Below, piece after piece: positions 34,077 through 52,051 of a stretch of 64,000 nucleotides of DNA (positions are counted from its first letter, which is position 1; each line of letters starts with the position of its first letter). The position numbers and the translations under genes are program-made. Source of the DNA: Aminivibrio pyruvatiphilus. GTDB lineage: Bacteria > Synergistota > Synergistia > Synergistales > Aminobacteriaceae. The notes beneath the pieces are model-generated. The model was not told the origin of the DNA and ran no database searches. It was given only the letters and a program-made list of their open reading frames with translations. The DNA is taken from positions 1 to 64,000 of the forward strand of contig NZ_SORI01000009.1 in the NCBI RefSeq assembly GCF_004366815.1, given 5' to 3'.

Positions 34077-35327
34077 TTATAAGGCCTGCCGGACCCATCG
34101 CCCCATTACTCTGTCGGCTTCCGCGAGGACGAGCCATAATTCCTGGATTGCGTTTATCAGCTCCGTCCTGCTTTTCTGGTCAGCTTCCTGCGCGGTGATC
34201 AGGTCAAGCTGGGATCCCAGCCCTTCGCGGTACATCATCTCGGCGATCTCCAGCTCCTTGTCGGCCCGTTCGGCCTGACGGCGGCGGATGGCGACGATTT
34301 CGAGCGCCCGCCCCCATCGTTCGCGGACAAGATCAGCTTCCCGCTTCAGGCTGTCGCGCCTCGCCTCCAGTTCGTACCCGGCCTTTTTGAGCAGCGACTC
34401 AGCCGCCCCGGTTTTGTTGGCCGTCTTCCCCCCGTCCGTCAGGGGAACTGTCAGCACGGCGCGGACGAAGACCTCACCGCCCCGCTCCATGGAGGAATTG
34501 AGGTCTTCCAGAACCCGCAGCCCCAAGGAGAGATCCACGAAGGGAGACAGCCCCTTCGCGGCGAGGGAGCGCTGCACCGAGGCCCGTTCCCTGGAGAGCA
34601 TCAGCGAGGCGACGTCGGGGCGGCTCTCCCATGCCTTCGTCTCGTCCACGGCGGGACTCAGCTTCTCGAGTTGGGGGAACATGGTCTCCGGCGTTACCGG
34701 AACTCCCCCTGCGAGAGCGCTCATCTCGACGAGCTGCTGTTCGTACTTCTGGCGGGCCTGGAGGAGGAACGCCTCGCCGTCGTCAACCTGCGACTGAGCC
34801 CGCAGCAGCTCCAGAAGGGAGACAAGCTCCTTGTCGAATTTCTCGCGGGTGATGAGCAGCGATTCGCGGCGTTTCGCCACGATCTGTTCCATGGCCTCCC
34901 GGTTCAGCGCCGCCATCACCGCCCTGCGGTAGGCGGACGCTGCGAGGGCGAGCCGTTCATTGACCGCGTCGGCGTACTGGTTCCGGAGAATCTCGACTCC
35001 GAGGAGAAGCTCCCGCTCCTGGAGTCCGTAGCTTCCCGAGAGGTTAACGCGGTGCGAGAGGGAGAGGTCGATCTGCTGATCGCCCCGCTCCTGGTCGAGC
35101 CACTTGCTTGCCTCGGCGGAGAGCCCGAGCGAGGGGCGCTGAACGGAAAGTTCCGCCCGGGCGGAGAAAAGCCTCGCATCGATCTCCTGCCTTACGGCGG
35201 CGAGGTCGTTGTTTCGCTCCATCACGAGGGCCAGGTACTGAGCCTCCGAAAGCGGCGCGGAGAAGGCCGTCAAGGGAAAGAGAAAAAGAAAAGCAGGCAG
35301 TGCGGCGAAGAACATGCTAAATTTCAT
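34077..35327 (-). CDS. TolC-family outer-membrane efflux protein
   Basis: 416 residues with a signal peptide (residues 1-23, ending TAFSA) and the TolC/OEP architecture: two copies of an alpha-helical plus beta-strand repeat (coiled coils near 95-190 and 300-410). It would form the outer-membrane channel of a tripartite exporter. It is separated by about 15 kb of RiPP genes from the HlyD/ABC exporter genes but is the nearest outer-membrane component. Starts at ATG 35327 after AAGGAGG. Confidence 0.85.
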   Translation of the reverse strand: MKFSMFFAALPAFLFLFPLTAFSAPLSEAQYLALVMERNNDLAAVRQEIDARLFSARAELSVQRPSLGLSAEASKWLDQERGDQQIDLSLSHRVNLSGSYGLQERELLLGVEILRNQYADAVNERLALAASAYRRAVMAALNREAMEQIVAKRRESLLITREKFDKELVSLLELLRAQSQVDDGEAFLLQARQKYEQQLVEMSALAGGVPVTPETMFPQLEKLSPAVDETKAWESRPDVASLMLSRERASVQRSLAAKGLSPFVDLSLGLRVLEDLNSSMERGGEVFVRAVLTVPLTDGGKTANKTGAAESLLKKAGYELEARRDSLKREADLVRERWGRALEIVAIRRRQAERADKELEIAEMMYREGLGSQLDLITAQEADQKSRTELINAIQELWLVLAEADRVMGRWVRQAL

Positions 35328-35387
35328 GGGGCCTCCTTGTCGTCACTTTCGCAGGGTATGGATTTCGGTCCCTCGGGATCATTCTAC

Positions 35388-35471
35388 TCTTTGTGGGAGC
35401 ACTGAATCCATAGGGTTCACAAAAACATCTCTTTGTGTGAGCACTGAATCCATAGGGGTCACAAAAACATC
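35388..35471. repeat. Tandem 42-nt direct repeat upstream of tolC
   Basis: Two head-to-tail copies, 35388-35429 and 35430-35471, each including GCACTGAATCCATAGGG and TCACAAAAACATC, with only a few mismatches. It lies upstream of the minus-strand tolC gene and on the plus-strand side facing the RiPP operon. No similar repeat is seen elsewhere in the window. Confidence 0.7.
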
Positions 35472-35856
35472 GAAAGCATCTCCTGAGCCTGCTGCATACG
35501 TTACGATGCCTGAAAAATCATCCACAGGCAAAGTGGCGGTGCAAAAAAGAGATCAAATCGCTGACGGAGACGCCGTATTCTGCTCAAAAAGCGGAGTTTT
35601 TTAAAACGCGGTTCTTCAGCGATTCAGAGACCTAAATCCGCAGGCAGCGGGGAGCGTCACCGGTGCTCGCTTGTGCCGCCGGTGCAGATTGTCGTCCTTG
35701 ACAACTGCACCTGAAACCGACATCCTTGTCGGTTTCTCGGCCCGGGCGCTGTCCCCCAGGGGATGATCTCTTCGCCCCTGGCGGGGCGAATTCACCTTAT
35801 GCCCGGCGACACTCCCTCTGCCAGGAAAACCTGCGGATTTGGGAGAGAGCCGCTGA
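35472..35856. other. Hairpin-rich intergenic stretch, no gene supported
   Basis: Between the 42-nt repeats and the nif11 promoter. Perfect hairpins lie at 35713-35736 (10-bp arms, GAAACCGACA, 4-nt loop) and 35771-35790 (8-bp arms, TTCGCCCC, loop TGGC), without T tracts. An open frame on the minus strand (35616-35882) has no ribosome-binding site and biased basic content. This may be a dispersed repeat element or the remains of an inserted element; only a genome search can tell. Confidence 0.4.
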
Positions 35857-36184: not shown

Positions 36185-36457
36185 ATGACGATTGACGGGG
36201 CAAAAGCATTGGCTGCAAAGGTTTTAACCGATGAAGGCCTGGCGAAGCAACTGGGGGAAGCGAAAACCGAAGCGGAATTTAATGCGGTTGTTGCAAAGTT
36301 GGGGTACACCTGCACAGCGGCGGAGTTCGAGGCTGCCTTCAAGGAGGCGCAGGAAAACACACCGCTCAGCGACGAGCAGCTGGATCAGGCTTCCGGGGGC
36401 CTGAGCATCGTCGGCGTGGATTACGCCTTTACTGCGGTACAGACATCCAAATTGTAG
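36185..36457 (+). CDS. Nif11-type RiPP precursor peptide
   Basis: 90 residues: a Nif11-like leader (about 1-72; helical, Ala/Glu/Lys-rich, with AEFNAVVAKLGYTCTAAEFEAAF typical of the family) ends in LDQASGG, a double-glycine cleavage site for a C39 peptidase. The predicted core is the 18 residues LSIVGVDYAFTAVQTSKL. It has no Cys, His, Trp or Pro, so lanthionine or thiazole chemistry is unlikely, and rich aliphatic and aromatic side chains are available for carbon methylation or cross-linking. AAAGGAG lies 9 nt before ATG 36185. A hairpin follows before the enzyme genes. Confidence 0.9.
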   Translation: MTIDGAKALAAKVLTDEGLAKQLGEAKTEAEFNAVVAKLGYTCTAAEFEAAFKEAQENTPLSDEQLDQASGGLSIVGVDYAFTAVQTSKL

Positions 36458-36539: not shown

Positions 36540-38291
36540 GTGGATCTGCTGCTGATTAAAACACACCGCTACGTCAGCGGGTACATTCCCGGAAGCAACC
36601 TGGGAATGAATATATTGATACAGCTGCTGACACGACAAGGGTATACGGCACGGATGTATCAGGGCTATGCAAAAGAAGCCCTGAACTACGTGAGAGCGAT
36701 CATGGACAGCGAGGACCGGCCGAAAGTCATCGGCTTTTACTGTGATTTTGACAATGTTCACTGGGTGAAGATCCTTGCACGGGAAGTGAAAAACGGGTAC
36801 CCCGGTGTAATTCTGCTGGCAGGCGGCCCTCAGGCCGTCGACATGGACGCCTGGTTTTTGAAGGACACGGGCATTGCTGCCGCCTGCATCGGCGAAGGGG
36901 AAGAAACGGTTCCGGAACTCATGGAGTATTTCATTCATAACCGCGGTGCCCTGGAGGCGATTCAGGGAATAGTGTTTCTGGATGCCTCCTCGAACTTTGT
37001 TGCCACATCCCCGAGAACCCCGCCGGAGGCGCTGGATGATATCCCATGGCCTGACATCACCCTGACCAGCGATTATAAACACTACGCCCTTCTCCCCATT
37101 TTAACCGGACGGGGCTGCCCTTTCGGATGTACTTTCTGTTATGAAGGGGCCAATGCCAAACGGGTCCGCCGTCACTCGGTTTCCTCGCTGATGAAGGAAA
37201 TCAGGGCGAATTTTCAACGCAATCCGGACATAAAATATATTAATTTTCTCGATGACACCTTTACGCTGGATTCTCAACGGGTCGACCGGATTTGCGAAGA
37301 GATCAGGGAAATCAGGAAAGAGTATGATTTCGTCTGGTTTGCCAGCGCCCATATTTCTCTTATCGACAGGCACCGGGCCATGGCCCGGAATCTTGCGGAG
37401 TCCGGGCTCAAAAAAATCTTTTTCGGCCTGGAATCCGGCAGTGATGCTGTTTTAAAAAGCTACAACAAGAAAATAACGCGGAAGATGGCAGTGGACGTCA
37501 TTGAACATTGCGTTGAATCGGGGATTCACGCAATTTCCGGCAACATTATCCTGGGGGGACCCCACGAAACCCGGGAAACCGTCCAGGAGTCCGAAGATCT
37601 GATCATGGAACTGCTGTATAAGGCCCCCGGTCAGTTCGAAACCGCCTACTTCTCATTTCTCCCCTTTCCCCAGACCCCGATCACGCTGAATCCCCAAAAA
37701 TTCGGAATGGAAATTTATGAGGACCTCATCGACTGCTGCAATGAAGATATTCCCCTTTCCGGAACCGCTGCACTGGATTTTCTGGAGCTGACACAGATTC
37801 GGCTTGAGGCCAACAGGCGGCTCCAGTATGAAATGCGGAAGATCTATCTCGAAGGAAGAATTCCCGAAGCGGTGATTCTGGATGCGTACCGTTACGGCGG
37901 TCAATACGGAGTGTTCACCCGCTGGAACGATTATGTGTACAAGAATCTGCCCATTGATGACGCCTACTGGAAAATGCGCGTTTTCGGCGGGTATGTGCCC
38001 GGCAGCCAACTGGGATCACGCGGGGAAGACGCCATTCCGCACCGGACCTTCGAGTTGTGGCTCCATACAGACGTCAGCGGAGAAAAACCGCAGATTGCCG
38101 ATATCCCCCTGGAGACAATGGATTTCACCCTTCTCACGTTGTGCAGCGGAAAACTTTCAAAACGGGAAGTGCTTCAGCAGGGAAAAACGGCGCTGGATCC
38201 TTCGGGGTGCCGGCCTGATTTCTACAGACAGGCAGAAGAATCGCTGAATGCCATGGAAAAAAACAAGTGGATACTCTACCAGAAGCCATGA
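36540..38291 (+). CDS. Cobalamin-binding radical-SAM RiPP maturation enzyme, module 1
   Basis: 583 residues, matching the family of ribosomal-peptide-maturation radical-SAM proteins with an amino-terminal B12-like domain. B12-type domain at about 1-150 with CDFDN (68-72), AGGPQ (94-98) and GEGEE (118-122). Radical-SAM domain at about 185-400 with [4Fe-4S] ligands C193-x3-C197-x2-C200 and YEGANAKRVRR following. A carboxy-terminal part (about 470-583) contains FELW and an alpha/beta segment like a small winged helix. Starts with GTG 36540 after GGAGG. The first enzyme gene after the precursor. Confidence 0.88.
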   Translation: MDLLLIKTHRYVSGYIPGSNLGMNILIQLLTRQGYTARMYQGYAKEALNYVRAIMDSEDRPKVIGFYCDFDNVHWVKILAREVKNGYPGVILLAGGPQAVDMDAWFLKDTGIAAACIGEGEETVPELMEYFIHNRGALEAIQGIVFLDASSNFVATSPRTPPEALDDIPWPDITLTSDYKHYALLPILTGRGCPFGCTFCYEGANAKRVRRHSVSSLMKEIRANFQRNPDIKYINFLDDTFTLDSQRVDRICEEIREIRKEYDFVWFASAHISLIDRHRAMARNLAESGLKKIFFGLESGSDAVLKSYNKKITRKMAVDVIEHCVESGIHAISGNIILGGPHETRETVQESEDLIMELLYKAPGQFETAYFSFLPFPQTPITLNPQKFGMEIYEDLIDCCNEDIPLSGTAALDFLELTQIRLEANRRLQYEMRKIYLEGRIPEAVILDAYRYGGQYGVFTRWNDYVYKNLPIDDAYWKMRVFGGYVPGSQLGSRGEDAIPHRTFELWLHTDVSGEKPQIADIPLETMDFTLLTLCSGKLSKREVLQQGKTALDPSGCRPDFYRQAEESLNAMEKNKWILYQKP

Positions 38292-39976
38292 GAGAAAACC
38301 CAATCGTTTTGCTGGTGTACACCCAACGGATGGTCATTGGGCGAACCTTTGAAATGATCGGGAATCTGGGGATATTGACACTGGCGGCCCAGCTCAACGC
38401 CAACGGCTTCGACGCAAAAGCCTGTACCGGCATCACCACCGATGTGGCAAAAACCATCGGACGAAGAAAAGACCAACTGTTTGCAGTCTGTTTTTACTGT
38501 GACTTCGATAATCAGACGGCTGTTGCGGCCATCATCAAGGATCTGAAAAAAGACGCCGGGAATGCTTTTTATGTGGTCCTGGGCGGACCGCAAACCCTGC
38601 ATATGACGGAAAGGGATCTGGAAACCTACGGCGCCGATGCCATCATCAAGGGGGAGGGAGAAGAATCCCTGCTCGCCTGGCTTAAAGCGAGGAGCGGGGG
38701 AGAAGAAATCTCCGTGCCGGGGGAAATCCTTCCCCATGAGAATCCGGAGTACATATACCTGGACGATTTCTCACAGTACCCTCTGCCTCAGGATGAAGCG
38801 GTGCTGGAGTATGCCGAAAGGCCCCTGATGTCCGTGATTACCGCCAGGGGGTGTCCGTACAGATGCGCGTTCTGCTTCGAAGGGGGCAATTCAAAAAATT
38901 TGCGAATGCGCTCCGCGGAGCATGTGCTGTTCGAAATCGAAACACGGCTGCAGAAAAGCCGGAGACCCCGCTACCTTTTTTTTTGCGACGATACTTTTAC
39001 CGCCAATCCCCGGAGGCTGAAAGAGCTGCTTGAAGGATTGAGGCGCCTTCGGAAAAGCCATGATTTTGTCTGGTTCTGCGAAGGGCATCCGGGATTTCTT
39101 TCAAAACGCCCGGAGTTGATCAGGGAAATGATGGAGAGCGGCATGGTCCGGATGCAGATCGGTCTGGAGTCCGGAGCTGATTCCGTCCTTCAGGCCTACG
39201 GGAAACAGGCCGGCCCGGAAGACGTGAGGAACGTGGTGGATATCTGCTGCCGGGAGGGACTGCCCCAGCTCGCCGGAAATTTCATTATCGGCGGAGCCTT
39301 TGAAACCCCGGAAACGCTCGAGGAAACCACCCGCTTCGCCCTTGACCTGCTCGAGGCTGCCCCGGGGATGCTGGATCTATCCACCACCTTTCTGACGCCG
39401 CTGCCGGGTACCCGGATCTGCAATGATCCCGGGCAATTCGGTATTGCCATGGAAGACCGGGACTGCCTCACCTCCCTGGAGGACTTTCCGGTGAACCGCA
39501 CGGGGGAGTTATCCCTGCCGGAAATCTGCAGGGCGCGCTCCGTCTTTCTCACCCGCATTTCGAACGCCATGAAAGAGCAGTACGCGAGCGGGCGGATTCC
39601 GGCGGGGCGGATCCGGCGCGACTTCGAGCTGGCCTTTCGATACGGCATTGCGGCAGGATACCTGAAGTTTCTTTACGGCCGGAACCCGGTCACGGTGAGC
39701 TACTATCGAAACCTCACCGGGTACCGGGGGCTTCTGAAGGAATGGCATGAGCTTGAAGCGTCCGAAAAGGAAAGGTTTGTCATCCAGCGCGTTCCGGATT
39801 TTTCACTGGTGGATTTCACAGCCTTGAGCGATATGGAAACGGATATTCTTCTGGATGCCGGTGTGTATTCGGTGAAGGAGACGGCGGAGAAGCTGGCCGT
39901 TTCGGCGGAGAAACTGGCTGTCTGTCTTGAAGGAATGAGCCGGCGTCACCTGGTGTTATTCTCACCCTGCCCCTGA
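38288..39976 (+). CDS. Cobalamin-binding radical-SAM RiPP maturation enzyme, module 2
   Basis: 562 residues, same architecture: CDFDN (71-75), GGPQ (99-102), KGEGEE near 121-126, then C189-x3-C193-x2-C196 and FEGGNSKNLR. The carboxy-terminal region is divergent; instead of FELW it has a Leu/Ala-rich repeat (KLAVSAEKLAV near 533-543). The ATG at 38288 overlaps the stop of module 1 (ATGA), so the two are translationally coupled; a GTG 21 nt earlier is less likely. Confidence 0.85.
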   Translation: MRENPIVLLVYTQRMVIGRTFEMIGNLGILTLAAQLNANGFDAKACTGITTDVAKTIGRRKDQLFAVCFYCDFDNQTAVAAIIKDLKKDAGNAFYVVLGGPQTLHMTERDLETYGADAIIKGEGEESLLAWLKARSGGEEISVPGEILPHENPEYIYLDDFSQYPLPQDEAVLEYAERPLMSVITARGCPYRCAFCFEGGNSKNLRMRSAEHVLFEIETRLQKSRRPRYLFFCDDTFTANPRRLKELLEGLRRLRKSHDFVWFCEGHPGFLSKRPELIREMMESGMVRMQIGLESGADSVLQAYGKQAGPEDVRNVVDICCREGLPQLAGNFIIGGAFETPETLEETTRFALDLLEAAPGMLDLSTTFLTPLPGTRICNDPGQFGIAMEDRDCLTSLEDFPVNRTGELSLPEICRARSVFLTRISNAMKEQYASGRIPAGRIRRDFELAFRYGIAAGYLKFLYGRNPVTVSYYRNLTGYRGLLKEWHELEASEKERFVIQRVPDFSLVDFTALSDMETDILLDAGVYSVKETAEKLAVSAEKLAVCLEGMSRRHLVLFSPCP

Positions 39977-40101
39977 GGCACCGCAAACAGGGGGTTATTG
40001 CAGACAATATCTGAAGATGCGGGTGATCCTGTTGATCGCCGGGGTGATTTCGTGAAGCCACGGCAGCAGGTATGCATAAAAATAAAACGTGGAGGCGCGG
40101 T

Positions 40102-43100
40102 GTGAAAACGTTCAACCTGAGACTGATGCTGATCCATCGCGGAACGAGAACCCATTCGATCACACAGATCGAGCCTATCGGTCTTATGTCGCTGGCGGAG
40201 ATGATGACCGGCCAGGGGATTGAAACGGCCGTTTTTTCAGGAGAGCTGCTGAAAGGGCTGGAATTCCTGAACGCAGCGGGCTGCAGCCGGGATACGGTAG
40301 TGGGATTATACTGTGATTACGAGAATCAGTCGGCGGTCGAGAGTTTTTCCAGGGTGATCAAGGAGCGCTTCGGTGCCGTCGTTCTCGTCGGCGGCCCTCA
40401 GACCGTGGGGCAGGGAGAAGAATTTCTGCGGGCAAGCCGGGCTGACGGGATCATGCGGGGCGAAGGGGAGTACTCACTGCACGCCGCCCTCCGCGCACTG
40501 GAAGAAGACCGGAGGGACCTGTGGGAGACCATCCCCGGGATGTGTTCGTTCACCAAGGACGGAGCATACTTCGACAACGGGATCTACCCGGTCATCGAGG
40601 ACCTGGACGCCATCCCCGGCATTTCGGGAACCATCAGATCGGCCCAGCACCGGGGCATCAATCATATGGCGGTGATGACAGGGCGTGGCTGTCCTTTCCA
40701 CTGCTCTTTCTGTTATGAGGGGGCCAACAGCAAAAACGTCCGGCAGCGCAGCGTGGCGGGTGTCATGAAGGAGATCCGGTGCCGCCTGCGGGAGAATCCC
40801 AACGTGAAGTATCTCTTTTTTTGCGACGACACCTTCACCCTGAACAGGGAACGGGTGCGCGCCTTTTGCGAAGAGCTGAAAGAGCTGCGGAAGGAGCACG
40901 ATTTCGTCTGGTTCGCCGACGCCCATGTCAACGTCGTCATCAACCACCCCGATATCGTGAAGATGATGGTGGACGCCGGCCTGGTCCGGATGCAGATCGG
41001 CATTGAAAGCTGCAGCCAGCCCATCATCGACATCTACAACAAGAACGTGAAACGGGAAGGCTTTTTTGAAGTCATCGAGATCTGCAAAGCGGCCGGACTT
41101 CCCCAGCTTGTGGGCAACATCATCATCGGCGGCGCCCTGGAAACCCGGGAAACGCTCACATATACGTTCGACACCGTCTATGAAATGATACGCGCAGGCA
41201 GGGGGATGGTGGAAGTGGTCAGCACCTTCTACATGCCCTTCCCGGAAACGGCGATGTCGAGGGACCCCGAAAGATTCGGCGTTATCGTGAAAGACGGGAA
41301 GGCGCTCACCTCGGTGGGAGATTTCCCTGTGATAGAGACGAAGTCCCTGGGCATCGAAGAAATCTGCGCGGCCCGGAACGAATTTTTTGAAGGGACGACC
41401 GGAGTTATGCGGAAAATGTTCCGCGACGGCGAAATCCCCGACGAGACCGTCCTGCAAAGTTACGCGCTGAGTGAACGCTACGGTCTCAGCGGTATGTGGC
41501 AGAGCCTGGCGTACGCCCGATACCCCTATTTCGACGCCCAGTACAAGGCCCGGATTCGGGGAGACAAGCTCACCAGGGACTATGACGACACCGCCGTGTT
41601 CGATACCCACCCGCAGCGGCTCTTTCTGCTTTCGCTGACGCCCGCCCTCTCGGCGGAAATTCCGGCCCTCAATGGATTTGTCTTTTCTCCCTTTGAATTT
41701 GAAGTCCTGACATACACGTCCGGCAAGCTGACCATGCTTGAAATGGCGGAAGCGCTTTACCCCGGATATCAAATGAACTTCGGGAGTTTTGAAGCGTTCT
41801 CTCTGCACCTGCTGGAAACCGTCAAAAAACTGGAAGCGGCGGGAATGTGCGTGCTGTCCGGCCCGTTGAAGCCGAAAGCAGCCGATCGGGAATGGAAAAA
41901 TCAAAAACACTCAGAGGAGCCCCCCGTGAAAAATAAGGTCATACTGTTCAAACTATCGACCATGGGCATGCAGATAGCCGGTTACAGCCGGAGCGGAGCA
42001 TTCCTGGGGATCTACGGGCTGGCAGGCTATCTGGAGGAAAAAGGGTATGATGCCGTGGCCTGCGAATGCCGGCCTGATGAGGTCATGGAGTACCTCCGGC
42101 GCATTCCCTTCGGGGAAATCTGCTGCGTCGGCTTCTCGGCGGACTTCGAGAACAGGCATGCAGTCAAAAAGGCCTGCGCCGCCATTGCGGAGTCCTGCGG
42201 GATTCCGGTGCTGATCGGCGGCCCCGAATCCATCGCCCTGGATGAAGAGTACCTTCGCCGGTCAAAGGCAACCGCCATTGTTCGGGGCGAAGGCGAACTG
42301 GCCATGGCGGCGGTGCTGGATGCCCTGCAGGAGAACAGGAGCCTGGACGGTATTCCCGGGATTTTCTATATCGGCGAAAAAGGGGAGTGCATCGACAGGG
42401 GCGAAGGACCGGCGGTGGAAAACCTGGATGAGCTGCCCTTCCCCGCCTATGACAAAAGCATGACCCCCATAGACTGCTCCAACCTGTACATCATGACCAG
42501 CCGGGGGTGCCCCTTCCACTGCGCTTTCTGTCATGAAGGCGCCCTCAAACGCCCCATGCGGCAGCGAAGCGTAGCGAATGTCATTGCGGAAATGCGCCAT
42601 TTCCTTTTGAAATATCCTGAACTCACGTACTTCAGTTTCTGCGACGATACGCTGGTCACCAATCCCGCGTGGCTGGACGAATTTTGCCGGGAGGTAAAGG
42701 CCCTTCAGGTCCTCAGACCCTTCCGGTTCTACTGCGAGGCCGATGTGGCCTCCCTGAGCAGGCGTCCGGAGGTCATAAAGGATATGGTGGACGCTGGTCT
42801 CAACCGGCTGCAAATCGGCATTGAAACTGTCGACCGGGAGATGCTGAAGATTTACCGCAAAAACATCACGCCGGAAATGGTGGAAATTGTGGTGAAAGCC
42901 GCTTACGATGCCGGAGTGCAGCAGGTTTTCGGGGCCCTTCTGGTGGGCGGCCCCTTTGAAAACCGTGAGCATATCGAGAAGAACAAAGCCTTCGGCGCAA
43001 AGCTGCTGCGGCTCGGACCGGGGATGATGGAAATATCCCCCAGTATCGTGATGCCCTACCCGATGACCGACATCGGACAGCACCCCGAAAAATACGGCCT

Positions 43101-43692
43101 GAAGATCACTGACAGGCAGGGGTTGGCCTGCAACTCCGATTACCCGCTCCTGGAGAGCGAAACCATGAACAGGCGGGAGATCATGGCGGCGTACCAGGAG
43201 TACCTTCAGAGCTTTGTGGACGAAGTGAAGAAAATGCTCGATACAGGCGAACTGGGTCATGAGGACATCCTGGGCTGTTTCCGCTCATCCCTGAATTCCA
43301 GGGGGCCCAAATACTGGAGCAACATCATAGCCCATCATAAACCCGCTCTGACCCCCTATTACACCATGCTGGCCAGGGACGCCGCCAGCCGCATAGTGGA
43401 CGTGAAGCCGGAGGAGCTGCCCGAGTGGCGCCCGCAGCGGCTCCTCGAAATGTGGCGCGATGTGGACTTCTCCAGGGGCTATCCCCTTGTGAGGGGCGAG
43501 GCGCTGTCGCCTTTTGAGTACGAGGTGCTGAAATACTCCACAGGAAAGAGCACCATCGCCGCCATAACCCGGATCCTCCATGACCGGTTCGGAAAACCGT
43601 TCGGGGAAACGGAGGAAGAGCTGATGGCGCGAATCATTGAAACCCTGAAGGCCCTTGATGCAAAATACTGGCTGCTCGTGGTTCCGTACTAG
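40102..43692 (+). CDS. Fusion of two cobalamin-binding radical-SAM RiPP enzymes (modules 3 and 4)
   Basis: A 1,196-codon ORF containing two full copies of the enzyme. The first half has CDYEN near 71-75 and C197-x3-C201-x2-C204; the second half has SADFEN and C803-x3-C807-x2-C810. Each half ends in a region like the carboxy-terminal part of its relatives. An internal GTG at 41926 with AGAGGAG 6 nt upstream begins the second copy in the same frame, where a separate gene would start. I place the main start at GTG 40102 (GGAGG 6 nt upstream); an ATG at 40072 with a poor site is also possible. Either a natural fusion or recent loss of a stop codon. Confidence 0.82.
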   Translation: MKTFNLRLMLIHRGTRTHSITQIEPIGLMSLAEMMTGQGIETAVFSGELLKGLEFLNAAGCSRDTVVGLYCDYENQSAVESFSRVIKERFGAVVLVGGPQTVGQGEEFLRASRADGIMRGEGEYSLHAALRALEEDRRDLWETIPGMCSFTKDGAYFDNGIYPVIEDLDAIPGISGTIRSAQHRGINHMAVMTGRGCPFHCSFCYEGANSKNVRQRSVAGVMKEIRCRLRENPNVKYLFFCDDTFTLNRERVRAFCEELKELRKEHDFVWFADAHVNVVINHPDIVKMMVDAGLVRMQIGIESCSQPIIDIYNKNVKREGFFEVIEICKAAGLPQLVGNIIIGGALETRETLTYTFDTVYEMIRAGRGMVEVVSTFYMPFPETAMSRDPERFGVIVKDGKALTSVGDFPVIETKSLGIEEICAARNEFFEGTTGVMRKMFRDGEIPDETVLQSYALSERYGLSGMWQSLAYARYPYFDAQYKARIRGDKLTRDYDDTAVFDTHPQRLFLLSLTPALSAEIPALNGFVFSPFEFEVLTYTSGKLTMLEMAEALYPGYQMNFGSFEAFSLHLLETVKKLEAAGMCVLSGPLKPKAADREWKNQKHSEEPPVKNKVILFKLSTMGMQIAGYSRSGAFLGIYGLAGYLEEKGYDAVACECRPDEVMEYLRRIPFGEICCVGFSADFENRHAVKKACAAIAESCGIPVLIGGPESIALDEEYLRRSKATAIVRGEGELAMAAVLDALQENRSLDGIPGIFYIGEKGECIDRGEGPAVENLDELPFPAYDKSMTPIDCSNLYIMTSRGCPFHCAFCHEGALKRPMRQRSVANVIAEMRHFLLKYPELTYFSFCDDTLVTNPAWLDEFCREVKALQVLRPFRFYCEADVASLSRRPEVIKDMVDAGLNRLQIGIETVDREMLKIYRKNITPEMVEIVVKAAYDAGVQQVFGALLVGGPFENREHIEKNKAFGAKLLRLGPGMMEISPSIVMPYPMTDIGQHPEKYGLKITDRQGLACNSDYPLLESETMNRREIMAAYQEYLQSFVDEVKKMLDTGELGHEDILGCFRSSLNSRGPKYWSNIIAHHKPALTPYYTMLARDAASRIVDVKPEELPEWRPQRLLEMWRDVDFSRGYPLVRGEALSPFEYEVLKYSTGKSTIAAITRILHDRFGKPFGETEEELMARIIETLKALDAKYWLLVVPY
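41913..41928 (+). promoter_or_regulatory. Internal ribosome-binding site and GTG start within the fused radical-SAM gene
   Basis: AGAGGAG (41913-41919), 6-nt spacer, GTG (41926-41928), in frame with the long ORF. The residues that follow (VKNKVILFKL) align with the amino termini of the stand-alone paralogues. Could allow separate production of a 588-residue second enzyme. Confidence 0.6.
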
Positions 43693-43705
43693 AAAAGGTG
43701 ACGGG

Positions 43706-45418
43706 ATGAAGATTCTTCTCTGCAACGTATCGAAAAAGTACGATACCAGCACCCATGATTATGTGGGGCTCTTTTACCTGGCGGGCGCCCTGGAAGAGGC
43801 CGGTTTTGAACCTGTGGTCTTTCATGGAAAACCGGAGCATCTCCTGGACGAGATAGAAAAGAACGGGCCCCGGGCAGTGGGTTTTTCCTGTGATTTCGAC
43901 AATGTCCGGATCATCGAAGACCTGTCCCTGAAGATAAAGGAACGCTGGAATATCCCCATTATTGTGGGGGGCCCCCAGGGCATTGCCCTGGGGAGGGAGT
44001 TTCTTGAAAGCAGCGGTGCGGATTTTATCCTGCGGGGCGAAGGAGAGGTCTCGCTGCCCAGGCTTCTCAATGCGGTCCTGAAGGATGAAGGCGATGTCGG
44101 CGAGGTGAAGGGACTGGCGGGAATCAGAGACGGGGTCTTTATGGAAACCCCTCCTGAGATCATCGCCGATCTGGATACCCTGCCGCTGCCGGCCTACCAT
44201 ACGTCGCTGCACAAAGACCGCGCCTACGGAAATTTGATTTTTACCGGCCGGGGCTGCCCCTACCGGTGTGCCTACTGCGCCCCCAGCCCCGGAAAGCAGA
44301 AGGTCCGGCTGAGAAGCATCCCCCTTGTGCTGAAGGAAATCAAAACCAACCTGCACAACAACCCCGGACTGCGCTGCCTGATTATCATGGACGACACCTT
44401 TACCCTCAGCCGGGAGCGGATACAAGCCTTCTGCGAAGGGATGAGGGAGCTGCGGAAAGAACGGGATCTGGTCTGGTACTGTGAATGTCATGTGGGGCAC
44501 ATCAAAACCTTTATGGATATCCTGCCGGAGATGATCGATGCCGGCCTGATCCGTCTGCAGATCGGGATAGAATCCGGGGACCAGAATGTCATCGACCAGT
44601 ACAACAAGCACGTCAGAATCGACGACATCGTTGAATTTGTAACCTATGCCGCCGGCTGCGGCCTTGCCCAGATCGCCACGAACTTCATTGTGGGGGGGCC
44701 GGCGGAAAAAGACGGGGCGACCGCCTCGCTGATCCGGACCCTGATCGACCGGGCCCCCGGAGTCATCGATATCATTACCGGTTTTTTGCGGGCCTACCCG
44801 GGAACTGACATCTCGGAGCATCCGGAGAAATTCGGCTTGCAGCTCCATGACGCCTCCGGCCGCCGGACCGGGGACGACTACCCCTTCGTAACGCCGGTCG
44901 GATGCAGCCAGGTTGAGGTGATGCACCATCGCCAGGCACTCAACAAAGAGATCCGCCGCAGCATGCAGCAGAAAATCAAAAAACGCGAACTGAAGCAGGA
45001 AGCGGTGAGAAAGCAGTTCGAAGCCGCATTCAAATACGGAATCCGAAGCCGGTGGTTCGCGGAGATTTCAGCCAATCCCAGAGCCTATGAATATTACTAT
45101 GTGCTGTTTTTGAACGAGGGACAGCCCTTCGAGGAATCCCTGGATTTTTCCCGGGATTATCCCCAGCGGACTTTTGAATTATGGCGTGCCATGACGTTTT
45201 CGGAAGGATTTCCCCAGCTGGACGGCACGGCGCTCTCGCCGCTGGAGTATGAGCTGTTGTTGCGGTGCGCAGGTAAAAGAAGCCTCGGGACCATTGAGAA
45301 TGAACTGTATGGATTGTTTGGTGCCCCGTACGAGGACCAACGGGAATTTCACGCAATGCTGCTCGGCATGCTCGGTACATTCGATTCCAGGTATTGGCTG
45401 ACTCATTTCGTGGTGTAG
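43706..45418 (+). CDS. Cobalamin-binding radical-SAM RiPP maturation enzyme, module 5
   Basis: 570 residues: CDFDN (62-66), VGGPQ (87-91), GEGEV near 111-115, then C184-x3-C188-x2-C191. The residues after the cluster motif are APSPGKQKVR instead of the YEGANAK type, marking it as the most divergent active site. The carboxy-terminal third has QRTFELWRAMTF and then LSPLEYELLLRCAGKRS..., a small winged-helix-like region ending DSRYWLTHFVV. AAGGTG lies 6 nt before ATG 43706, which is 13 nt after the fused gene. Confidence 0.86.
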   Translation: MKILLCNVSKKYDTSTHDYVGLFYLAGALEEAGFEPVVFHGKPEHLLDEIEKNGPRAVGFSCDFDNVRIIEDLSLKIKERWNIPIIVGGPQGIALGREFLESSGADFILRGEGEVSLPRLLNAVLKDEGDVGEVKGLAGIRDGVFMETPPEIIADLDTLPLPAYHTSLHKDRAYGNLIFTGRGCPYRCAYCAPSPGKQKVRLRSIPLVLKEIKTNLHNNPGLRCLIIMDDTFTLSRERIQAFCEGMRELRKERDLVWYCECHVGHIKTFMDILPEMIDAGLIRLQIGIESGDQNVIDQYNKHVRIDDIVEFVTYAAGCGLAQIATNFIVGGPAEKDGATASLIRTLIDRAPGVIDIITGFLRAYPGTDISEHPEKFGLQLHDASGRRTGDDYPFVTPVGCSQVEVMHHRQALNKEIRRSMQQKIKKRELKQEAVRKQFEAAFKYGIRSRWFAEISANPRAYEYYYVLFLNEGQPFEESLDFSRDYPQRTFELWRAMTFSEGFPQLDGTALSPLEYELLLRCAGKRSLGTIENELYGLFGAPYEDQREFHAMLLGMLGTFDSRYWLTHFVV

Positions 45419-45555: not shown

Positions 45556-48420
45556 CTACACCGTCTGCCTGCGGACCAGCTCTGCGAAGAGGCCGTTTTT
45601 CGCCATCAGCTCGCCGTACTTCCCCTCTTCGACAAGCCGCCCGTCCTCCAGAACGCAGATCCTGTCCGCTCCGATGATCGTTGAGAGGCGGTGGGCCACC
45701 ACGATGCGCGTCGCCTGGATACCCTCCAGGCTGCGGCTGATCATCGCCTGCGTCCTGTTGTCGAGGGCGCTCGTGGCCTCGTCGAAGATCAGCACCCGCG
45801 GCTTTCCGGCAATGGCCCGTGCCACGAGAAGGCGCTGCTTCTGCCCTCCGGAGACCGTGTTCGCCCCGTCGGTGATGACGGTGTGGATCCCCATGGGCAT
45901 CGCGGCGATGTCCTCCTCCATTCCGGCCATCCGGAGCGCCTCGTCTATCTGCTCCACCGACAGGCTGCGCGAACAGCGGATGTTGGATGCGATATCGCCC
46001 GAAAGCAGCCCTCCGCCCTGGAGGACCACGCCGATCTGCCGGCGGAGTTTCCCCAGGTCCAGCTCGGTGATGTCCCTGCTGTCGTAGAATACTCCTCCCG
46101 ATTCCGGCTGGTCGAAGCCCAGAAGAAGCCGGATGAGCGTGGACTTCCCGGCCCCCGACGGCCCCACGATCGCCACGAACTCCCCCGGCTCGATGTGGAG
46201 GTCCAGCCCCTTCAACACCGGGGGGCCGTCCTTGAGGTACCGGAAAACGACCTGTTCCAGGTCGATCTTCCCCGAAATCTCCCCGGGATCGGTCTTGAGG
46301 TCGCCCGCCTCCGGTTCTGCCCGGAGAATGGGCGCGAGGTTCTCGACGAGGGGAAGCATGTTCATCGTGGCGGTAAAGGAGCTCACGATCTGGAAGAAAG
46401 CCGCCTGGAGCGCTCCGAAAGCCGACCAGAAGGCCATGAATTGTCCCGTGTTGTAGATGCCGTCCGCGGCGCTCCAGCGGACGAGGGCGTAGAGGACCGC
46501 GATGGCGACGGAGAGCGGGAAGAGCGCCAGTACGGTATTCAGAAAAACCTCGAGCTTTCTTGCTTTCGTCCCGAGCATCCGCTGTGCACCGAAAAGCTCG
46601 GCCCACCGGGCGAAGGACCGCTCCTCGGCCCCCGCTACCCGTATCTTCGAGATGCCGGTCATGATCTGGAAGGTGAGTGCCAGCAGGCGGTTCTGCAGGC
46701 CGGTCATCCTGCGCTGGAAGCGGAGCTGAACGAGATTCACCGCCACCATGAGCACCGCGGGGACGAGAAGGCACCCAAGGCCGGCGAGGGCCAGCTTCCA
46801 GTCGTACCAGAACGACTGCCCCAGGAAGAATACCAGGAAGACGCTCTGCACGAGGAATGTCTTCACCGTCCTCGACGCCGTCTCCCGGAGAGCGAAGAGG
46901 CCGAGCGCCCGGTTGGCGAGGTCGCCGGAGGTCGTCTTCCGGAAGAAGCCCACCGGCAGGCGCAGGATGCGGTCCCAGAGCCCGGTTGCGACGTCGTGGT
47001 CCAGCACTGTCTCCGAACGGAGAAAGGCGATGCCGTTGGCGTAGTGCAGCAGCCCCGAGGAAACCGCCACCGAAACCAGAATTGCGAAGAGCTGGAGCAT
47101 GCGTCCCCGCTCGGCATGGGGAATCACCTCGCCGAATATCTGGCGGTTGACTTCGGGGGAGACCAGCCCGAGAAGGGCGAGGGCGACCGAGACGACGAAG
47201 ACGAAGCCGAGGTCCTTCTTTGTTCCCTCAAGGCCGAAGCGGAGCAGGTCCATCCCTCCCAGCGGGGAGCCGGGAAGAGGACGATAGATCTGCACCGCGC
47301 CCGGTGCGAGAGTTCCGGCGATTGCCTCGTCGACTGCCCGCTCTCCGTCGTCGTCCGCGATGCGGTATCCGCGGCTCGTGGGCAACAGGGCAACCGGCGT
47401 ACCGTCCCGGTACGCGATCAGGGGCGCTCCGTCGGAGAGCCACCACGGACCGGCGAGCGTCACCGTTCGATATTTGAGGTTCGAAGCCTGGGCGAGGTCG
47501 CGCAGCGATTCGTCTCCTCCCCCCTCTCCTCCCGGGGCGATTTTCCGGCCGAGGTATCCCGCCACGGTGGAAAAGGCCCTCCGGAGCGGAGAGTCCTCCC
47601 GCCGCGCAGCCCCATCCTCGCGGAGTTTTCCCGAGAGGGCGGACGCAAGGGTCGAGAGGGCCGTGGAAATGGCCCGCCTGCTCGACATCTGCATCTGCCG
47701 GAGTGCGCCGAGGTCGTCCGCGGCCCGAAGCCTGGCGTTCATGGCGAGGGAGGAGAAAACCATCTCGCAGAAGGCGTCGAAGACGGACGGGAATTCGCCC
47801 CCGCGAATCAGGTCCTCCGTGGATCGCCCATGCACGGTGCAGGATTCCAGCGGAACGATCCAGCAGTTCGGCGGAAGGGCGAAGGGCGTTCCTCCCGGCG
47901 AGAGGTCTTCGGTACCGACGAAGAGGGCTCTCCCCTCGACGATCTCTCCCCAGAGAAGCTCGTCCGTTCCCGCCGGCTTGTTGGCTTCGAGGGCCCCTCT
48001 CTCTCCGCCTATCTTCTGCCGCACCTTCGGCAGAGGCACGATGTCCTTGACGATGCCCCGGCCCAGCCCCTCGAGAAATTTGTCGACCAGGGAGGCCGTG
48101 AAGGCGATTCCCTGCCCTTCAGTCCCTTCGAGCAGCTTCGACCGGGCGATTCGAAGGACCTTCGTTCCCGGAATTCCTCCGGCGAGAAGCCCCATGGTAT
48201 CGCCGAAAAATCCCCTTTCAACGCCGAAGAGGGCCTCTCCTGCCTCCATGGTGAAGAGGTAATCCCGCCCGCCGGTCTGAAGGGCGCCGTCCCGGGCGGT
48301 GACGTAGACGTCTACCTGGCCGGCGAGGACGCACCAGACGGTCTCCGGATCGTCGAGGAAGAACGGCGTTTTTCCGGTGATCTCAAGTTCTGTGCCATGG
48401 AGGGCAAGCTCTTCGAACAT
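45556..48420 (-). CDS. NHLM-type bacteriocin ABC transporter, permease/ATPase with amino-terminal sensor-like domain
   Basis: 954 residues. The amino-terminal 400 or so are soluble, with a cyclic-nucleotide-binding-like fold near 1-110 (the class of the second NHLM transporter, without a peptidase). Membrane domain of about six helices (about 415-700), then an ABC domain with Walker A GPSGAGKST, signature VSGGQKQR and Walker B LIFDEATSAL. It forms an exporter with the C39 ABC protein and the HlyD protein. ATG 48420 has AAGGA 8 nt upstream; an upstream in-frame ATG at 48429 lacks spacing. Confidence 0.88.
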   Translation of the reverse strand: MFEELALHGTELEITGKTPFFLDDPETVWCVLAGQVDVYVTARDGALQTGGRDYLFTMEAGEALFGVERGFFGDTMGLLAGGIPGTKVLRIARSKLLEGTEGQGIAFTASLVDKFLEGLGRGIVKDIVPLPKVRQKIGGERGALEANKPAGTDELLWGEIVEGRALFVGTEDLSPGGTPFALPPNCWIVPLESCTVHGRSTEDLIRGGEFPSVFDAFCEMVFSSLAMNARLRAADDLGALRQMQMSSRRAISTALSTLASALSGKLREDGAARREDSPLRRAFSTVAGYLGRKIAPGGEGGGDESLRDLAQASNLKYRTVTLAGPWWLSDGAPLIAYRDGTPVALLPTSRGYRIADDDGERAVDEAIAGTLAPGAVQIYRPLPGSPLGGMDLLRFGLEGTKKDLGFVFVVSVALALLGLVSPEVNRQIFGEVIPHAERGRMLQLFAILVSVAVSSGLLHYANGIAFLRSETVLDHDVATGLWDRILRLPVGFFRKTTSGDLANRALGLFALRETASRTVKTFLVQSVFLVFFLGQSFWYDWKLALAGLGCLLVPAVLMVAVNLVQLRFQRRMTGLQNRLLALTFQIMTGISKIRVAGAEERSFARWAELFGAQRMLGTKARKLEVFLNTVLALFPLSVAIAVLYALVRWSAADGIYNTGQFMAFWSAFGALQAAFFQIVSSFTATMNMLPLVENLAPILRAEPEAGDLKTDPGEISGKIDLEQVVFRYLKDGPPVLKGLDLHIEPGEFVAIVGPSGAGKSTLIRLLLGFDQPESGGVFYDSRDITELDLGKLRRQIGVVLQGGGLLSGDIASNIRCSRSLSVEQIDEALRMAGMEEDIAAMPMGIHTVITDGANTVSGGQKQRLLVARAIAGKPRVLIFDEATSALDNRTQAMISRSLEGIQATRIVVAHRLSTIIGADRICVLEDGRLVEEGKYGELMAKNGLFAELVRRQTV

Positions 48421-48534
48421 GGGGTTCATCCTTCCCTGGCGATCCGAAGCATTCCGCGGCAGGAACCGGAACAGCCCGCCGTGCCCGCCGGCTGTCGGCA
48501 TGCACTGCTTCCTCCGGTACCGGCGGCAGAAATC

Positions 48535-50763
48535 TCAGTTCTCGATAAGACCGGCATAGCGTCCTCCAAGCCGCATCAGTTCCTCGTGAGTTCCCCGCTC
48601 CGCAACCTTTCCCTGGTGGAGCACGATGATCTCGTCGCAGTCGCGGATGGTCGAAAGGCGGTGAGCCACGATGAGGCAGGTGCACCCCCGGCGGCGGAGC
48701 GCACGGTCGATAGCCTCCTCGGTGGGCGCGTCCAGGGCGCTTGTGGCTTCATCGAGCACTATCAGCGACGGGGAGCGGACGAGCGCCCTGGCGATCTCCA
48801 GGCGCTGGCGCTGTCCGCCGCTGAAGTTGCGTCCGTTTTCCTCCACGATGGCGTCGTATCCTCCCTGGCGCGCGACCACGTCGCGGTGGATGCAGGCGTC
48901 ACGGCAGGCCGCCACGAGCTGCTCCGTCGGTATCGACGGGTCCCAGAGGGAGAGGTTGTCGCGGATCGTTCCCTCGTAAAGGGATATCTCCTGGTCCACG
49001 AAGGAGAAGGATGTGGCCATCTCCTCCCGGGAAATTGACCCCAGGGGACGGCCGTCCAGCAGAATCTCACCCGTCCACGGCTCGAAGAGGCCGCAGGCGA
49101 TGCGGGCCAGAGTGGACTTGCCCGAGCCGGATCCTCCCACAAGGGCCACCCGGGAGCCGGGAACGAGCGTCAGCGAAAAGTCACCGATCAGCGGATCGGA
49201 AAGCCGCGAATAGCCGAAGGAGATGTTCTTCATCTCCAGGCGCCCCGAGAGACGGACCTTGCGCCCTCCGGACATGGCGCCGTCTTCAAGTGCGGGGCGC
49301 TCGGCCATCCGCGGGTAGCGAAGCACGTCGTCGAGACGGTTCAGGTTCCCCTGCGCGGTCTGGAAGGAGTCCCAGAGGGTCACCAGCTCGGTTACCGGAT
49401 TGATCGTCTGCTGCATCAGTGTCTGCAGCGCGAGCAGCATGCCCATGGTGAGCACACCGTTCATTACGCGGAAGCCGCCGAAGCAGAGCACTCCTGCGGC
49501 AGCCAGCGAGGTAAGGGCGGGAAGCACCGACTGGGTGCGGACGGCCAGGCGGGAGAGTCCGGCGCGGCAGTCCGCTATCTTGCTGAGCGAGCCGGCCAGG
49601 CGGGCGAACTGCTCTTCCTCGCCCCCGAAGGACTTGATGGTCTCAATGACCGCGAGCCCGCCGATGGCGGCCCCTGCGAATTTCCCCACCTCGCCGGTGA
49701 AGCGCTCGTTCAGGTCCGTCCGCCTGCGGTTCACCGAGACGATCAGCAGAGCGCACGTCACCGCCGTCAAAAGGGCGATCACCGAAACGGGCGGGTCGTA
49801 CAGGGTGATCATCACCGCGTAGAAGAGCACCATGACGCATTGGAGCATGGTCGTCGCAAGCTCCCGCGAGAGGAGCTGCGCGACGCGGTCGTTCAGCTGC
49901 ACGCGGTTGCCGATCTCCCCGGCGTAGCGCTGAAGAAAGAAGGTGTACGGAAGTTTCAGGAGGTGATGCACGAAGGATGCCGAGTCGCGGATGGCCATCG
50001 AGAGCTCCTGCCGGAGGAGCACCGACCCCTGCAGCCATGTCAGCGCGCCCTTGACGAGTGCGATGGCCGCCATAAGGGTGAGCATGGGGCGGAACCACTC
50101 GAACCGGCCCTCCACAAGAAGACGGTCGACGAAGATCTGCTGGAACGCGGGCTCCATCAACCCCGGAACGACCAGGGCCAGCCCCGCAAGAACGGCGAAG
50201 AAGAGGGCCGCTTTCGCCCCGGCCAGCCTTCTGCCGAGGGCCGCCCATGGACTCCGGCGGCGGCCTGCCGGGCGGAACTGCTCCCCCGGCACTATGGATA
50301 TGGCGATCCCCGTGAACGACCGGTCCAGCGTCTCCCGGTCCACGGTGCGGGGGCCGGATGCAGGATCGTTGAGATAGACCGTACCGCCCTTGATGCCCTC
50401 GAGCACCAGGAAATGGTTGAAGTTCCAGAAGAGAATGAGCGGCAGCGGCAGATCGAAAAGACCCTGAGGCTCCTTCCGGAAACCCGAAGCCTCCATTCCG
50501 TGGCTCCGCGCGGCCTTGAGCAGGTTCGTCGCTTTGCTGCCGTCCCGGCTGACGCCGCATTCCTCCCGAAGCGTCTCCAGGGGCAAAAAGAGGCCGTAGT
50601 ACCCAAGAACAATCCCCAGTGAGGCGGCACCGCACTCGGTGGCCTCCATCTGGATCATCGTCGGTGTCGAGACGCGGCGGTTCTTCCATAAGGGGAATTG
50701 TCCCGAAGGGGCAAGGGAAGACTCCCTGGGGGGCGGCGTCTTCATGACGGGGCGATCAGGCAT
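48535..50763 (-). CDS. NHLM-type bacteriocin ABC transporter with C39 leader peptidase
   Basis: 742 residues: C39 protease (about 30-165) with Q38, catalytic C44 in MEATECGAASL, H117 in NFNHFLVLEG and D133; a six-helix membrane domain (about 185-470); an ABC domain with GGSGSGKST and FSGGQRQRLE. It should cleave the Nif11 leader after Gly-Gly and export the core. The start overlaps the hlyD stop by 8 nt, with GGAGGGAAGG upstream of ATG 50763. Confidence 0.92.
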   Translation of the reverse strand: MPDRPVMKTPPPRESSLAPSGQFPLWKNRRVSTPTMIQMEATECGAASLGIVLGYYGLFLPLETLREECGVSRDGSKATNLLKAARSHGMEASGFRKEPQGLFDLPLPLILFWNFNHFLVLEGIKGGTVYLNDPASGPRTVDRETLDRSFTGIAISIVPGEQFRPAGRRRSPWAALGRRLAGAKAALFFAVLAGLALVVPGLMEPAFQQIFVDRLLVEGRFEWFRPMLTLMAAIALVKGALTWLQGSVLLRQELSMAIRDSASFVHHLLKLPYTFFLQRYAGEIGNRVQLNDRVAQLLSRELATTMLQCVMVLFYAVMITLYDPPVSVIALLTAVTCALLIVSVNRRRTDLNERFTGEVGKFAGAAIGGLAVIETIKSFGGEEEQFARLAGSLSKIADCRAGLSRLAVRTQSVLPALTSLAAAGVLCFGGFRVMNGVLTMGMLLALQTLMQQTINPVTELVTLWDSFQTAQGNLNRLDDVLRYPRMAERPALEDGAMSGGRKVRLSGRLEMKNISFGYSRLSDPLIGDFSLTLVPGSRVALVGGSGSGKSTLARIACGLFEPWTGEILLDGRPLGSISREEMATSFSFVDQEISLYEGTIRDNLSLWDPSIPTEQLVAACRDACIHRDVVARQGGYDAIVEENGRNFSGGQRQRLEIARALVRSPSLIVLDEATSALDAPTEEAIDRALRRRGCTCLIVAHRLSTIRDCDEIIVLHQGKVAERGTHEELMRLGGRYAGLIEN

Positions 50764-52051
50764 CGCCCTTCCCTCCGCCGATTTCTTCTCCGATCCCGAG
50801 GAAGAACTTCTTCAGAAAGGGAAGGACCAGTGTCACCGGGGCCTGCCGCCTGACCACGACAGTCACGCCGCAGAGGGTGCCGCTCTGCAGGACTACGGGG
50901 GGGCCGTCGCCCGACGACCACACGTATCCGCTCTCCGTCTCTTCAGAGGGATAGAGAGCCATCATCACGGTGATGGGGGAGCCTCCCCGGGAGAGGGTCT
51001 GCACAAGCTGTTCGTTGCCCAGGACACGGGTCATTCCTCTCGCCGAAGCCGGAAACGAGGAGACGTTCGTCACCTTTCCGCGCAGGACGCCGAACTCTTC
51101 CTGCTTCACCACGGAAGGGGAGATCTGCGCCTCCATCCCGGACAGGATTTTCTTTCCGTCCTGGGGCTGGACGAAGGCGTGCACGTAGAGAGGCGCCCCG
51201 TCGCCGAGCGATTTCTCCACGGAGAGAAGCGCCTCCCCTGCGGATATGACCTGGCCTTCCGACTTGAAGACCTCGAGCACCCGCCCTGCGGCAGGACTGC
51301 GAACGGCCGTCTCCAGGTCATATCGTTCTTCGAGAGCGGCGAGCTGCTTTTCTGCGGTCAGAAGGCGCATGTCCACGTCGATCCTCTGCCGTTCGATCTG
51401 CGAGGTCGAGTCGGCCGCCGTCATCGGAAGGCGGGCAAGCTCCTCGTTGAACGAGAGGATCTCCTGCAGCACGGCGTTGTAGCGGTCCTTCACCTCGAGA
51501 TACTGGGAACGGGTGATGTACTTTTTCGCGTAGAGGGCATCGTACTGCTCCAGCTGCTCACGCAGCGAGGATGCACGGTCCCGGGCGACCTTGATGGAGG
51601 AATTCAGCGCCTGCCTGCGCCGCGCGAGGTACTCCGACTCCAGGACTTTCTTGCTGTCTCCCATCTCCGTCCCCATGGTCCGTTCGGTCTTAAGGATCTC
51701 CACCCGGCCGCGCAGCTCGGTGATCTGGTGCCGCAACTCCATCTGGGCCAGCCGCGCAATGACCTGGTCCTTCTCGACGGGGTCGTCGATATCGACGTAG
51801 ATGGCTTCGAGACGGCCGTTCCCCGGTGAGGGAGCGTCCGCATGCGCACCGAGGCGCAGCAGAATGCCCTGCCCGGAAACCAGCGTGGTCACCGTACCGT
51901 AGAAGCCCCATGCCGCCAGTACCCCCAGCAGCAGCAGCAGTGCTGACAGCGCCGCCCACGTCGCGGGGCGGACGACCTGAAAGAGCATGTCGAGCTGTTC
52001 GGGCGAGGAGAGCCTGTCGAGTGCGGACTGGCGGAATATCTGTTTTTTCAC
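50756..52051 (-). CDS. NHLM-type HlyD family secretion protein
   Basis: 431 residues: short cytoplasmic start, one transmembrane helix (about 32-55), then a periplasmic adaptor with a long coiled coil (about 105-230) flanked by lipoyl and beta-barrel halves. It links the inner-membrane ABC transporters to an outer-membrane channel, probably the TolC-type protein at 34.1-35.3 kb. GTG start at 52051 with AAGGAG 11 nt upstream. First gene of the exporter operon. Confidence 0.88.
   Translation of the reverse strand: MKKQIFRQSALDRLSSPEQLDMLFQVVRPATWAALSALLLLLGVLAAWGFYGTVTTLVSGQGILLRLGAHADAPSPGNGRLEAIYVDIDDPVEKDQVIARLAQMELRHQITELRGRVEILKTERTMGTEMGDSKKVLESEYLARRRQALNSSIKVARDRASSLREQLEQYDALYAKKYITRSQYLEVKDRYNAVLQEILSFNEELARLPMTAADSTSQIERQRIDVDMRLLTAEKQLAALEERYDLETAVRSPAAGRVLEVFKSEGQVISAGEALLSVEKSLGDGAPLYVHAFVQPQDGKKILSGMEAQISPSVVKQEEFGVLRGKVTNVSSFPASARGMTRVLGNEQLVQTLSRGGSPITVMMALYPSEETESGYVWSSGDGPPVVLQSGTLCGVTVVVRRQAPVTLVLPFLKKFFLGIGEEIGGGKGDA

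Follow-up and report, generated by a model that had tools for sequence, protein, structure and literature searches.

The window analysed here, a 64,000-nucleotide stretch of the Aminivibrio pyruvatiphilus genome (contig NZ_SORI01000009.1, positions 1–64,000), contains on its forward strand one gene that encodes two B12-binding/radical-SAM enzymes in tandem. The listed open reading frame starts at an ATG at 40072 and runs to 43692 without a stop codon at the junction. In each half, a B12-binding domain (PF02310) is followed by a radical-SAM domain (PF04055), with two matched stretches per Pfam family. The N-terminal half (40102–41862), which also includes a C-terminal region, carries the CxxxCxxC [4Fe-4S] motif as CPFHCSFC (40690–40713, residue 207); the C-terminal half (41926–43692), 588 residues long if internally started, carries it as CPFHCAFC (42508–42531, residue 813). 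The original prediction of a single stop-free frame holding two complete enzyme copies is borne out by these two sets of domains and motifs, as is its remark that the halves (about 608 and 588 residues) match the stand-alone paralogues in size (583, 569 and 587 residues). The open frame itself stands, but its listed ATG does not. In the alignment, the position of the GTG at 40102 is occupied by GTG or TTG in every homologue that reaches so far, and the sequence upstream diverges. The strongest Shine-Dalgarno (SD) sequence of the gene, GGAGG at 40091–40095, also precedes this codon (duplex energy −9.3 kcal; mean of −9.2 kcal across homologues). Because conservation begins there and the ribosome-binding site is strongest, GTG 40102 is most likely the real start, giving a protein of 1196 residues (40102–43692).

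By domain and motif criteria, both halves are B12-binding-domain radical-SAM enzymes, and use of cobalamin, a [4Fe-4S] cluster and SAM is predicted. They resemble the enzymes described by TIGR03975 (rSAM_ocin_1, a RiPP maturation C-methyltransferase) and NF050148 (ApyD), B12-dependent radical-SAM enzymes of RiPP pathways with the same layout and setting; these models, however, describe single enzymes, and the present matches are significant but below the curated cut-offs (130 versus 281.85 bits and 204.5 versus 750 bits, respectively). Each enzyme scores below the cut-offs of named radical-SAM families, and an exact family assignment is therefore withheld. Relatives of solved structure found by sequence search include OxsB, TokK and CysS, all of them weak matches that cover single domains only. 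A structure model (mean pLDDT 68, pTM 0.45), in which residues 578–607 fall below a pLDDT of 50, supports a floppy linker between the halves and nothing further, as the relative placement of the halves is unreliable.

The gene lies among others indicative of peptide modification and export. Upstream on the same strand is a predicted Nif11-leader RiPP precursor of 90 residues (36185–36457; TIGR03798, 43.2 bits against a cut-off of 32.3), with the core LSIVGVDYAFTAVQTSKL after a GG motif. Domain matches and the tree identify two stand-alone B12/radical-SAM paralogues between precursor and fused gene, A (36540–38291, forward strand) and B (38267–39976, forward strand); a third, C (43655–45418, forward strand), follows the fused gene and probably starts at the ATG at 43706. 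On the opposite strand are an NHLM-type export ABC transporter (45556–48501; TIGR03797, 795 bits against 709), a peptidase C39 export ABC transporter (48535–50763; TIGR03796, 983 against 853) and an NHLM HlyD-type secretion protein (50756–52051; TIGR03794, 302.6 against 156), as well as a TolC/OEP outer-membrane efflux protein (34077–35327; PF02321). With the precursor and NHLM export profiles all above their cut-offs, the locus qualifies as a Nif11-leader RiPP cluster with NHLM-type export, and a modified peptide is its predicted product. A near-perfect direct repeat, CTCTTTGTGNGAGCACTGAATCCATAGGGNTCACAAAAACATC, lies upstream of the precursor at 35385–35475.

The precursor core was compared between the window (36185–36457) and loci L038, L041, L044, L045, L050, L052, L055, L057, L150, L152 and L153. 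It reads LS[IL]VG[VI]DYAF, followed in most copies by a tail containing QT or ET, and is nearly identical in Synergistaceae, Acetobacterium, Sporomusa, Thermoclostridium and Wallbacteria. Such near-constancy across Synergistota, Bacillota and Wallbacteria is odd for a bacteriocin and resembles the precursor of a signal or cofactor. Some Acetobacterium loci contain two or three precursor copies, and near a related Synergistaceae cluster a second Nif11-type precursor has a glycine-rich hydrophobic core, GGASNDMMWGITIGVGIGGGLGIIALAIAAAGA (L036, position 3549). Gene order also varies: precursor-A-B-fusion-C in Synergistaceae (window 36540–45418) and fusion-C-precursor-A-B in Bacillota (L041, L045, L055). 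Literature searches gave no report of this core peptide, nor of a RiPP family that has five B12-type radical enzymes.

Distribution of the fused frame

Within the window's family, 5 of the 83 genomes have the same frame of about 1200 residues: the window's own and those of four relatives, in one of which a contig end cuts it short. This patchy occurrence suggests horizontal transfer of the cluster. Outside this family the frame occurs in 17 genomes of Acetobacterium and relatives, all from one family (3 of the 17 frames are cut at contig ends), and in Sporomusa malonica, Ca. Formimonas and a Thermoclostridium metagenome-assembled genome. Removal of duplicates left 25 distinct homologues, 67–86% identical, from two phyla: five are from Synergistota and the others from Acetobacterium, Sporomusa, Ca. 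Formimonas and Thermoclostridium. Every homologue of complete sequence retains both CxxxCxxC motifs, and dN/dS values of 0.04–0.17 indicate purifying selection on both halves. Among the genomes sampled from the class, order or family of Sporomusa, Formimonas and Thermoclostridium, no intermediate between the fused and unfused states was found.

A run of six C residues sits in the junction, a context in which an assembly or sequencing error might have deleted a stop codon or frameshift between two genes. Comparison with relatives, as originally proposed, speaks decisively against this: in a codon alignment the junction is open in 25/25 homologues, which were assembled independently from many species; isolate genomes of Acetobacterium and Sporomusa are among them, and relatives lack the C run. 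A real stop or frameshift between the halves is thereby ruled out, and since all homologues are open at the junction we reject an error, whose probability is practically nil.

Ancestry of the two halves

The two halves are alike in domain layout and size, as expected of a tandem duplication that stayed joined. In a 60-row tree, however, each type of half falls in its own fully supported clade, and the two clades are not sister groups. The C half clusters with paralogue C together with its Wallbacteria orthologues; paralogue B and N-like genes of Wallbacteria cluster with the N half. Each half has its own Wallbacteria orthologue, placed outside the fused clade. The tree is unrooted by any outside group, and single Wallbacteria orthologue rows carry long-branch warnings. 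On this topology the halves have long been distinct lineages, and a tandem duplication is extremely improbable. Neither this ancestry nor the Nif11 RiPP setting featured in the original prediction.

The Wallbacteria genomes show the corresponding genes unfused. The N-like gene is followed directly by a separate C-half-like gene and this by a separate C-like gene, which is also the order in the fused cluster; two further Wallbacteria genomes likewise have unfused N-like and C-half-like genes in that order, and in one of them the C-like gene comes next. The junction is readable in two genomes, and in a third (L057) it is masked by Ns. At L151 the N gene ends in TGA and is separated by a 13-nt gap from the ATG of the next gene, which has a GGAG ribosome-binding site (TGA-TAATGGAGCGATC-ATG); at L150 the TGA is followed by about 150 nt and then by GGAG and ATG. 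Adjacent orthologues in the same order, split by a stop codon and a ribosome-binding site, fit the originally suggested joining of neighbouring genes by loss of a stop codon. The Wallbacteria clusters also contain a second A-like gene and an extra N-like radical-SAM frame of 888–906 residues from stop to stop (L150, 14973–17636; L152, 6969–9686; L057, 5172–7877), of which about 300 form an added stretch.

The reverse course, in which a fused ancestor first gained the internal start and then split to give the Wallbacteria genes, should also be considered. A gene with an internal start is easily split, and rooting is uncertain without an outside group. Yet the fused clade excludes the Wallbacteria rows, all other enzymes of the family in these clusters are single, and the Wallbacteria N genes stop right past the conserved C-terminal region, lacking the linker that follows it in fused proteins (21 residues in the window, 17–25 overall). 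Fission thus appears quite unlikely, and stop loss with read-through of a short gap is the simplest reading of the direction of change.

Conservation of the internal start signal

The linker of the window's protein (41863–41925) is variable and modelled with low confidence, and probably derives from former intergenic DNA. At its end lies AGAGGAG (41913–41919; duplex −8.3 kcal), followed by the spacer CCCCCC (41920–41925) and an in-frame GTG (41926–41928). As originally noted, this arrangement, spanning 41913–41928, stands exactly where the second copy begins; the GTG is also the point at which stand-alone homologues start. Its predicted strength is about equal to that of the ribosome-binding sites of the Nif11 precursor (−8.7 kcal) and of the fused gene itself, and mRNA structure at the junction is weaker than average (−4.4 versus −8.0 kcal). 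SD-like sequence is present in 25/25 homologues, and the aligned start codon is GTG in 22, ATG in 2, which belong to separate lineages, and GTA in 1. The GTA homologue (L086), which has lost the start codon at the aligned position, falls in a four-member clade that instead has GGAG-N6-TTG/GTG four codons upstream, and the internal start seems to have shifted by four codons in one lineage while staying start-like. Within a window of a few codons at the junction, all 25 homologues have an in-frame start with an SD duplex of −5.6 kcal or stronger.

A lone SD-like site before an NTG codon is weak evidence, because in these genes a duplex of −4 kcal or stronger precedes 28% of the NTG codons that are in frame. 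Chance cannot be judged from one sequence and was therefore assessed by conservation, by synonymous shuffles that keep the proteins and codon usage, and by the three paralogues as controls. The junction exceeds the shuffles by −4.1 kcal (z = −8.2) and ranks second of about 1200 columns, after the true start; as the shuffles ignore relatedness, z is inflated everywhere and the rank is the fairer measure. In the same scan of paralogues A, B and C, internal sites reach at most −3.2. The GTG/ATG fraction elsewhere averages 0.39 over 50 valine columns. One such column, at residue 382, equals the junction with a GTG fraction of 0.96; it is the sole one to do so and lies in a conserved protein context. 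Competing SD-like sites occur at residues 382 and 420, where the surrounding protein identity is 0.94 and 1.0; the former ranks close to the junction and was discounted on account of its strongly conserved protein stretch. Protein constraint does not account for the junction signal, because amino-acid identity in the six codons preceding the internal start is only 28%, versus 94–100% at the competing sites. The junction site thus exceeds chance by virtue of its conservation across 25 homologues, and SD sequence and start codon are conserved past what the protein sequence requires.

Predicted products of the fused gene and related systems

Conservation of the ribosome-binding site and start codon despite a fast-changing linker fits the originally proposed selected fusion that also makes a free second enzyme. 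With a probability of roughly 0.78, we propose that two enzymes were encoded by neighbouring ancestral genes, that the first gene lost its stop codon and a short gap came to be read through, joining the frames, and that selection retained the ribosome-binding site and start codon of the second gene within the fused frame. Two products would result: the fused enzyme of about 1196 residues, and a free second enzyme of 588 residues whose translation would begin internally at GTG 41926. Formation of both is probable on the sequence evidence. The five B12-type radical-SAM enzymes of the cluster would act on one short conserved peptide core. As fused and unfused clusters share nearly the same substrate, the chemistry can do without fusion; fusion may affect enzyme dosage or channelling, and the free copy may raise the dose of the second enzyme or act as a partner within a complex.

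The full-length fusion could also be the only product, the SD-like stretch being either a vestige or a site that slows elongation between the domains and aids folding of the first. The linker is indeed a domain boundary of low model confidence, and internal initiation is deduced from sequence. A vestige, however, should have decayed, given synonymous divergence of 0.14–1.0 per site in the pairs tested and a linker of such low identity, and a pause site has no need of a start codon, yet ATG, GTG or TTG is kept together with the SD sequence in 25/25 homologues. We regard production of the fusion alone as rather unlikely, though less so than fission.

Each element of the proposed two-product gene has precedent. 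FbiC (FO synthase) is a fusion of CofG and CofH, which some organisms have as two proteins and others as a single fused one (PMC8498797). It is likewise a fused radical-SAM pair whose halves exist separately elsewhere, although we claim no sequence membership and its product is a deazaflavin, in contrast to the RiPP setting here. We know of no B12 use or kept internal start in FbiC. Cas11 is a free C-terminal protein made from an in-frame internal start inside cas8 or cas10d (PMC11899642); it is, however, a small structural subunit, whereas the product here would be a second full enzyme, and the proteins are unrelated. For SctQ/HrcQ/SpaO, a single gene is reported to yield full-length and C-terminal products through an internal start (PMC8553256, PMC13059759); this is a structural secretion component rather than a two-enzyme fusion. 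A literature search on starts retained after gene fusion found nothing direct. By analogy, the present case would join an FbiC-like fusion and a Cas11- or SctQ-like internal start in B12-type RiPP enzymes.

Much as Cas11 serves in Cascade, the free second enzyme might be a partner that the fused enzyme cannot do without; this we offer as a tentative possibility. If it is true, a single gene fixes the ratio between two radical enzymes that act in sequence on a peptide core near-unchanged across three phyla. The locus is a clear-cut natural example of a gene fusion that left the second gene's start signal in place, and both the fused and unfused states can be read. It opens to testing the question why internal starts persist in fused genes of bacteria, with enzyme stoichiometry as a possible reason. 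It also draws attention to a family of RiPPs whose core peptide is conserved between phyla and whose clusters encode five B12-type radical enzymes.
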